The notes under the pieces: generated by a model
Databases searched by the model: none
Told to the model about the DNA's origin: nothing
Seen by the model: the letters and a program-made list of their open reading frames with translations, nothing else
Translations under genes and position numbers: made by a program
Part shown: piece by piece, positions 10,718 to 13,026 of the stretch
Layout: the number at the start of each line of letters is the position of its first letter
Position numbering within the stretch: position 1 is the first letter of the stretch
Origin: Sulfurovum sp.
GTDB taxonomy: Bacteria > Campylobacterota > Campylobacteria > Campylobacterales > Sulfurovaceae
Reading direction: 5' to 3'
Assembly (NCBI GenBank): GCA_020525365.1
Contig: JAIZOF010000001.1
Coordinates: 953,456 to 1,017,455 of the forward strand
DNA length: 64,000 nucleotides

Positions 10718-11200
10718 CTAAAGTGGTTTCATATTGAAGCTAATATTTGGAGAGATACGTTCTATTTTGTCACTCTCCTCTTTAAGAATAGCATTGATAG
10801 CTTGAAGCGTATCTCCTCTTATAATTTTAAATAGAAAATCTCCACTTGTCATTTTTCTAATTAATTTTAGGTGATAATTTTGCTCTAATTCTTTAATGTT
10901 AGCTTCCTTACCCTTATTAAATTTGATCATAATATGACTTTTCGAATTAAATTTTGTTCCATCAGAAAAAAGATATTCTGTGGGTTTTTCTATTGATGTA
11001 GATTGGGTATGCTGCAACAAGTCTACTTTTTTTGCAGGATAAACCATTTTTTCTGCAATAATACCATTACGTATGGTGCTTATTTTAATACCTCTTGATT
11101 TGACAATATCTGCATTATCTATAAGTAAGACCTTCTTTTTATTGGCATAAAGTATATTACCAAAAATAGCCACTATTGTAATTAGTATGATTATTTTCAT
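10718..11200 (-). CDS. Exported subtilisin-propeptide-like protein encoded in trans
   Basis: The 160-residue protein has a cleavable signal peptide (residues 1 to about 19). After a linker, residues about 90-155 read like a subtilase propeptide of the I9/fervidolysin-N type: IMIKFNKGKEANIKELEQNY, then a beta/alpha/beta pattern ending IERISPNISF, comparable with the usual 'V.Y.EPN' end. The gene's ATG overlaps the protease stop codon (ATGA), so the two are translationally coupled. The protease itself has no such domain. I infer an intramolecular chaperone or inhibitor supplied as a separate chain. The family assignment is by eye. Confidence 0.5.
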   Translation of the reverse strand: MKIIILITIVAIFGNILYANKKKVLLIDNADIVKSRGIKISTIRNGIIAEKMVYPAKKVDLLQHTQSTSIEKPTEYLFSDGTKFNSKSHIMIKFNKGKEANIKELEQNYHLKLIRKMTSGDFLFKIIRGDTLQAINAILKEESDKIERISPNISFNMKPL

Positions 11201-13026
11201 TGTCTCTCCCTATGGTGTCCAAATGCACCAAATTTGACATGTTGTAGTGAACCCTCATCTCCATTGAAAATGTCAGCAATTCTAAGTGTCCATGTGCCAG
11301 CTGTTGATTCTCCCATAAATGCTACTGACCCATATCTAAATCCACGCTTAAGTGAGTAATTGCGAGCACTATTTTTCCCTAGCATTAATCGTGTAGTAGT
11401 TCCTGCAGGTGAAGTAAGATAGATTTCTAAGTCACTACCATAAGAGTGATCAGAAGTGATGGTAACATCCATCCATTCAATGATTAGCTCTTTTGTTACA
11501 TCAAAGCTGTAACTAATACCGCTAAGATTATTATCTGGAATAGAAATATTAGAATCAATATTAAAGTTTTCTTCTATTGTATCGCTTTGTGGTAGGGGAG
11601 TATATTTCTTTTCACAATCAGCAACCATGCCCTCACCATTAATTAGACCAAAACCATAATCAACACTGTGATGTAGTCCAGCACTGTTGGTAACCCAGCT
11701 TGGATTATCTGGATCTACCTTAATGGCATGTTTGGCAATGAGATATTTTACATCTCTCCAGTTGAGTTTGGGGCAGGCTTCAAGCACTAAAGCCAATACT
11801 CCTGCAACAGTTGGTGTAGCTGCACTGGTTCCATTCATACCGTATGTATAGTTGAGCTCGTCATCATTTTCCCATGTCGGCATGGTGCATTGATTGTCTG
11901 ACTGTCTCACTAGCAGACATCCTCCATCTCTATTAATGGCAATATTATCTGGTTTAGCAGATCCACCTGTATGATAGGTTGTCGCAATAGCAGCAAGTTG
12001 CAAGATGTTTCCAGCTCCACCATAGCCCGATACAAGGATACAACTTCCTGGAGAAGAGTAAGATGCATAGGTATTATCACTCTTAAGAGATGCAACTGTA
12101 ATAACATATCGATTGGAAGATTCATAGACAAGACAGGCATCATGCTTGTTTTTTCGACCATTCCCCGCAGCCTTAAGAAAGAGTTTTCCTCTTGCAATCC
12201 CATCAATCTTTCTTAAATACTTTGCTCCATACTCCATAAGATCTTCAAAATATGTATTTGGAGAAGCTACGCTAGGTGTTCCCCAGCTGTTACTGACTAA
12301 GATAATTTTTCCATCTGGGTCACCTCTTGTCCAAGCTTCCTCAAGTTCTGTTGTAGTTTGATTGCTATCTATCCAGTTACTACCTGCCAATTTGACAAAT
12401 GGAGCAATTCCACGAACACCCTTTCCATTAAAGGCTCTTGCTGCAATAATGCCTGCACACATAGTACCATGATAAGAACCATTTTGCCTTTCTTCGGGTG
12501 AACCTATAGAACGATAATGCTGTTTTGCATTTCGTGAGAGGTCTAAGTCCAGATTGTCTTTAAGGTCCTCGTGGGTATAGTCTATGCCTGTATCAATAAG
12601 CTGTACAACTCCTGCATGAAGACCCATATAACGATGATAAAGATTAAGAAGATGTAAATCATTCCCTTCTACTGTTGTTGAGCTTGGTGCTGATCCACTC
12701 TTTACGCCAGTACTCCGAATATACCATTGTTTATCAAAGAATGTATCTCCATAATCTCCACTTGTCTGTAAGCCATCAATGGTACCGTCATCATCTTCAT
12801 CTGGATTGTGTGGATCCATTCCAAGAATAAGTTCAATATTATCTGGAATATAGTCATTATCACTATCGCCTCTACGTAAAAAATTAATAATAGTGCTATT
12901 GCCTTCAGGGGATTTTTGTATATTTGATGTAGTAGCAGAGACACTGGTATCACTTTTTGATCGACAACCAGTTATCAATATTAAAGTTATTGATAACCCT
13001 ATAATTATAATGAGGTACTTTTTCAT
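11197..13026 (-). CDS. Lipoprotein subtilase (S8) with calcium-binding thrombospondin-3-like repeats and a P domain
   Basis: The 609-residue protein starts with a lipoprotein signal (LILITGC, Cys21). A DSDNDYIPDNIE...DEDDDGTIDG stretch at about residues 54-85 resembles thrombospondin type 3 calcium loops. The S8 catalytic domain has Asp145 (LIDTGID), His186 (YHGTMCAG), oxyanion Asn289 (AAGNG) and Ser401 (GTSAATP). A proprotein-convertase P domain (about residues 490-605) ends near TAGTWTLRIAD. There is no N-terminal propeptide between the lipobox and the catalytic domain; a propeptide-like protein is encoded immediately downstream. It probably acts on the cell surface or in the periplasm. Confidence 0.9.
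   Translation of the reverse strand: MKKYLIIIIGLSITLILITGCRSKSDTSVSATTSNIQKSPEGNSTIINFLRRGDSDNDYIPDNIELILGMDPHNPDEDDDGTIDGLQTSGDYGDTFFDKQWYIRSTGVKSGSAPSSTTVEGNDLHLLNLYHRYMGLHAGVVQLIDTGIDYTHEDLKDNLDLDLSRNAKQHYRSIGSPEERQNGSYHGTMCAGIIAARAFNGKGVRGIAPFVKLAGSNWIDSNQTTTELEEAWTRGDPDGKIILVSNSWGTPSVASPNTYFEDLMEYGAKYLRKIDGIARGKLFLKAAGNGRKNKHDACLVYESSNRYVITVASLKSDNTYASYSSPGSCILVSGYGGAGNILQLAAIATTYHTGGSAKPDNIAINRDGGCLLVRQSDNQCTMPTWENDDELNYTYGMNGTSAATPTVAGVLALVLEACPKLNWRDVKYLIAKHAIKVDPDNPSWVTNSAGLHHSVDYGFGLINGEGMVADCEKKYTPLPQSDTIEENFNIDSNISIPDNNLSGISYSFDVTKELIIEWMDVTITSDHSYGSDLEIYLTSPAGTTTRLMLGKNSARNYSLKRGFRYGSVAFMGESTAGTWTLRIADIFNGDEGSLQHVKFGAFGHHRERQ

Follow-up and report, generated by a model that had tools for sequence, protein, structure and literature searches.

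A lipoprotein subtilase of Sulfurovum sp. and the propeptide-like protein encoded next to it: a probable split pro-protease with relatives in Campylobacteria

Introduction

Maturation of the subtilase ASP from Aeromonas sobria requires ORF2, which is encoded just downstream of the protease and serves both as its chaperone and as its inhibitor (PMC5638518). The C-terminus of ORF2, Gln-Pro-Lys, sits at the catalytic site of ASP, and ORF2 inhibits ASP with an IC50 of 84 nM (PMC5638518). The authors of that work list asp-orf2 operons in four other genera, i.e., Vibrio, Shewanella, Chromobacterium, and Pseudoalteromonas (PMC5638518), and ASP is still singled out in a survey as the exception among subtilases in having no propeptide in cis (PMC9549277).

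Free-standing proteins with a propeptide fold that target subtilases are also known in POIA1, the yeast peptidase B inhibitor, TgMIC5, and SUB1-ProM, for which the described role is inhibition. Another subtilase that needs a small partner from its own operon is the lipoprotein PrtP of the Treponema denticola dentilisin complex (PrtP/PrcB/PrcA). Expression of PrtP depends on PrcB, a small lipoprotein encoded in that operon; PrtP retains a propeptide in cis, the acylated N-terminal piece is freed and lost upon activation, and PrcB and PrcA1, other lipoproteins, have been proposed to anchor the complex (PMC8167434).

Here we describe a gene pair in a 64,000-nucleotide stretch of the Sulfurovum sp. 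genome (the window). A sequence-only reading had proposed that the propeptide of a lipoprotein subtilase is encoded there as a separate downstream gene, starting from the premise that subtilases need this domain in cis. The premise does not strictly hold, ASP/ORF2 being the counterexample, and the proposal restates an external-propeptide mechanism that is already known in principle from ASP. What is new is the spread of the arrangement across Campylobacteria, where the propeptide-like domain occurs as a downstream gene next to P-domain proteases, as an upstream gene mostly next to proteases without a P domain, or in cis.

Results

The protease is a lipoprotein-type subtilase without a propeptide in cis

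The protease gene (P0002, 609 residues, 11197..13026) and the gene for the small protein (P0001, 160 residues, 10718..11200) lie on the minus strand and share an ATGA stop/start overlap (11197..11200), which suggests translational coupling. A likely ribosome-binding site, AGGGAGAG (11204..11211), was seen by eye 5' of the small gene. The pair is placed between rpsF-ssb-rpsR on its upstream side and a convergent methyltransferase gene on its downstream side (names assigned by eye), and one or the other of these neighbours is retained in several relatives.

At its N-terminus the protease carries the lipobox ITGC (12964..12975), and we propose from its sequence that Cys21 is lipidated after export by Sec. 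Pfam places Peptidase_S8 at residues 140-460 (11647..12609; 2.8e-40) and P_proprotein, the P domain, at residues 517-596 (11239..11478; 1.4e-14). The catalytic triad D145/H186/S401 is intact and the oxyanion residue N289 is present, all four being invariant in an alignment with two relatives. As the sequence-only reading had stated, the region between lipobox and catalytic domain contains no propeptide: the Pfam search of the protease found no propeptide family at E<=1 and an HMM of the small-protein family does not match inside the window protease. Residues 22-95 (12742..12963) form a linker in which a Ca-repeat-like stretch, DSDNDYIPD...DEDDDG, is recognized by eye; the idea of a cis propeptide hidden in this linker was dropped because both searches were silent there. 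The closest relative of the protease in the PDB is ASP (3hjr, 7.1e-39; 3wqb, 1.8e-38). The PrtP model NCBIfam NF033595 matches with 9.4e-12 and 44.3 bits, under its cut-off of 300 bits.

The small protein is predicted to have the fold of an S8 propeptide

As judged by eye, the small protein begins with a type I signal peptide without lipobox (residues about 1-19, 11144..11200), and it contains IERISPN near its C-terminal end, in line with the exported protein that the sequence-only reading had described. An N-terminal extension (residues 20-86, 10943..11143), predicted partly with low confidence, overlies the ORF2 chain from residue 36 on. It is followed by a core with the β-α-β-β-α-β arrangement of a propeptide (residues 87-155, 10736..10942), modelled by AlphaFold2 on a 3-sequence alignment with a pLDDT of about 90, and the chain ends with the 10-residue tail PNISFNMKPL (10721..10750), whose last residue, Leu (L160), would be the P1 residue.

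The small protein has no match in Pfam or NCBIfam at E<=1, and PF18492 (ORF_2_N) does not match it at E<=10. The Pfam models I9, S8_pro-domain, and fervidolysin gave nothing above cut-off, and sub-threshold propeptide matches occur in single relatives only (PF16470, 0.018; PF22148, 0.012, the latter in a cis form). None of the family members scanned has an above-threshold match in Pfam, and an annotation would show them as hypothetical proteins. Neither phmmer with the small protein nor the profiles A1 and A5 found a real match among PDB sequences; ORF2 was found by structure only. A viral fold library yielded nothing useful, tblastn found no relative of P0001 in a plasmid collection, a distant DNA search gave no match, and a scan of a collection of genome contigs returned two relatives only.

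Among 350,542 PDB chains, Foldseek ranked 3wqb_B, which is ORF2 bound to ASP, first for the small-protein model (prob 0.99, E 0.083); other matches were fervidolysin, POIA1, EpiP, the Tk-subtilisin propeptide, and the furin-bound PC1/3 prodomain. VIA-align also placed ORF2 first (Z 8.0 over 91 residues, model residues 36-160 on chain residues 12-130), ahead of other S8 propeptides such as fervidolysin with Z 6.8. The fold relation to I9 propeptides that had been suggested beforehand is therefore what the predicted core displays. However, the Foldseek E-values are weak, the one for ORF2 being the best, and a Z of about 8 is near background for this common fold, unrelated ferredoxin-like chains reaching Z about 6; with such moderate scores the match to ORF2 needs independent evidence.

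The small-protein family pairs with S8 genes in Campylobacteria

Profile A1, run on 78 genomes of the genus, gave 16 strong matches (E<1e-8), three of them from the window's genome. All strong matches with a visible neighbour directly adjoin an S8 gene. This holds for 7/7 testable matches that are neither a profile seed nor a copy of one, one more lying at a contig end. The recurrence of homologues in the genus with constant S8 neighbours indicates that the pairing is not due to chance. The window's genome encodes three S8 proteases, and each of their genes has a neighbour from the small-protein family. Across 298 Campylobacteria genomes, PF18492 gave four sub-threshold matches (9e-6 to 0.008) in three genomes, all of them beside S8 genes.

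The architecture survey comprised 60 stretches hand-picked from S8 matches in 249 Campylobacteria genomes, to which loci of the genus were added. Most of the 60 encode comparatively short proteins that do not belong to the large family f10, and seven come from that family. The family HMM employed had been extended in three rounds by including the matches that it found. The counts, which show which arrangements exist and not their true frequencies, are 21 rows with the propeptide domain downstream, 17 with it upstream, and 8 with it in cis. All downstream rows, two of which (L018 and L034) represent a single locus taken from different sources, concern P-domain proteases, and a further downstream case missed by the HMM (L128) was seen by eye. 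Of the upstream rows, 16 concern proteases without a P domain and one, a paralogue from the window's own genome, has it; none of the cis rows has a P domain. The remaining survey rows, in which no domain was found, are mostly of autotransporter size or have N-terminal regions that are perhaps other propeptides. In most cases the trans gene and the protease gene are separated by -28 to 19 bases. Four P-domain proteases of the lipoprotein type (L109, L123, L129, and L133) stand without a partner beside them. In one of the genomes concerned, G265, a family member without S8 neighbour is also present, which speaks for the split-pair reading.

Most trans forms end where the closer cis propeptides would presumably be cut

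Aligned over their full length, the upstream type and five cis propeptides match with prob 99.8 and E 4e-29 and share the same end residue. The downstream type, to which the window protein belongs, matches the upstream type with E 1.5e-11, and a direct comparison of downstream type and cis forms was not significant (prob 3.9%); ribosomal protein S6 as unrelated control gave prob 0.2%. By transitivity via the upstream type, these profile alignments lead us to regard the small-protein family as homologous to cis-fused S8 propeptides.

A simple motif count by script, starting at the final P[NDE] (or LN[RW]) motif, shows that in 35/39 trans proteins the chain end is exactly 10 residues away from the conserved-proline motif. 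In the remaining four, the tail of L127 is also 10 residues long when counted from the first PN, L120 has no motif, and L126 (9) and L026 (7) are real exceptions. At the matching tail position, shortly before the catalytic domain, the five aligned cis propeptides have an invariant Arg; the other three cis forms, outside the alignment, have no Arg there by eye. Compared with the closer cis relatives, the stop codon of the trans forms thus corresponds to the point at which the cis chain would presumably be cut. The fixed tail length and the cis homologues further suggest that the C-terminus of the small protein contacts the catalytic cleft.

Trans-encoded propeptide-like proteins accompany predicted lipoprotein proteases

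All trans-served proteases with a readable N-terminus have a lipobox (31/31; 14 with downstream and 17 with upstream partner), as opposed to 0/8 cis proteases. Lipoboxes were called by pattern, with additions by eye in L019, L102, L108, and L127; the reading of L134 spans a masked gap. The tree unites the P-domain/downstream forms in a clade with good support and places several of the cis forms within the upstream clade. All contrasts between trans and lipoprotein state have one direction, yet only about 3 are independent, too few for significance.

Discussion

We consider it highly probable that the two genes encode a split pro-protease with a trans-encoded propeptide, as in ASP/ORF2. The predicted core fold, the kinship of the protease to ASP, the adjacency to S8 genes, the chain of homology to cis propeptides, the constant tail length, and the association with the lipobox all support this reading. 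The protease would be exported by Sec and lipidated, and the propeptide, made from the coupled next gene, would be exported on its own. Once in the periplasm, the small protein may fold as an S8 propeptide and template the folding of the catalytic domain, with its free C-terminal tail occupying the substrate cleft and its last residue at P1, so that it would inhibit in the manner of a product until it is degraded or set free. As the propeptide is absent from the lipidated chain, activation need not sever the enzyme from its membrane anchor. The earlier suggestion that a propeptide supplied in trans, after the enzyme, works as chaperone and diffusible inhibitor agrees with gene order and dual role of ASP/ORF2; that the inhibitor is diffusible may be presumed from the missing lipobox.

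Like the window pair, ASP/ORF2 (3hjr, 3wqb, and 2mk4; PF18492) combines an S8 + P-domain protease that has no cis propeptide with a small exported protein of propeptide-like body encoded just downstream. In contrast, the window protease is a lipoprotein whereas ASP is described as extracellular, and the small protein, unlike ORF2, lacks a match to PF18492 and has relatives that are also found upstream and in cis. In the gammaproteobacteria Pseudoalteromonas and Vibrio campbellii, one ORF2 relative each exceeds the cut-off of PF18492, and hhalign of the family against these two gave prob 1-4%, which is not significant. Common descent of the family with ORF2 is nevertheless likely from context and fold, though not proven by sequence. 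The cis propeptides of S8 proteases (Inhibitor_I9, fervidolysin prodomain, and S8_pro-domain) have the same β-α-β-β-α-β fold as predicted here, and homologous cis forms exist in the class, but the small protein comes from a separate gene with its own signal peptide and autoprocessing from the enzyme chain is impossible.

Might the small protein be a stand-alone, propeptide-like inhibitor or regulator, comparable to POIA1, the yeast peptidase B inhibitor, or SUB1-ProM, of a protease that folds without it? The fold would be identical, POIA1 is among the fold matches, free-standing propeptide mimics with a described inhibitor role are known (PMC6993865), and the four partnerless lipoprotein P-domain proteases would fit. 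We nevertheless think this unlikely: the window protease has no other propeptide, the tight gene pairing and the cis-to-trans homology point to an essential one, and ASP depends for its maturation on ORF2 (PMC5638518), which is the closest match by fold. A structural or anchoring subunit like PrcB of dentilisin, a parallel suggested by the operon organization and lipoprotein nature of that system and by the weak match of the window protease to the PrtP model, is very unlikely, since the small protein has no lipobox, and its predicted fold and fixed C-terminal tail are traits of a propeptide. A fortuitous resemblance to ORF2, due to the widespread ferredoxin-like arrangement, with another role for the small protein, seems barely credible. 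The modest fold scores would allow it, but ORF2 ranked first by two programs, S8 genes are adjacent, and the family is linked through the upstream type to true cis propeptides at levels far from the S6 control.

Why a propeptide should be split off is a different matter. A cis propeptide located between lipid and catalytic domain would remove the anchor once cleaved, as in dentilisin. We tentatively suggest, as an idea that we hold to be somewhat less likely than not, that the split keeps lipoprotein subtilases membrane-anchored after activation, in accordance with cis forms lacking a lipobox and lipoproteins of the class using trans partners. This rule does not explain every split, ASP being extracellular, and L124, a lipoprotein S8 protease with a long N-terminal region for which no partner was found, could be an exception. 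Many Campylobacteria have related split pairs, and this one class contains both gene orders, one protease-less copy, and cis relatives. They form a natural series in which to study the transition from an intramolecular to an intermolecular chaperone, for which lipid anchoring offers a testable reason.

Individual loci show further arrangements. In L129 and L133 (genomes G284 and G265) the protease gene occupies the rpsF-ssb-rpsR position as in the window, and the next gene is SurA-like by eye and not a chaperone of this family. L154 (G265:C35) contains a chaperone-family gene with a SoxZ-like neighbour (by eye) and no S8 gene in its 3.3 kb. In L114 (G206:C61) protease and chaperone genes alternate in a tandem of two pairs, and the second S8 gene is also flanked by the chaperone gene of the preceding pair. 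L049 (G099:C3) is a decayed locus, where a short ORF runs directly from a protease fragment into the final residues of the chaperone, which looks like the result of a deletion. The window's own genome (G000:C1) contains an identical 2,123-base stretch twice, near 1088 kb and 1352 kb (L026, L030, L053, and L055), which comprises the gene for an S8-P lipoprotein and most of its upstream chaperone gene; in the 1088 kb copy the first 24 codons of the chaperone, including its signal peptide, are replaced by other sequence. Some upstream-type chaperones (L006 and L048) seem lipoprotein-like themselves, with the lipobox-like motifs YGC and NAC recognized by eye.
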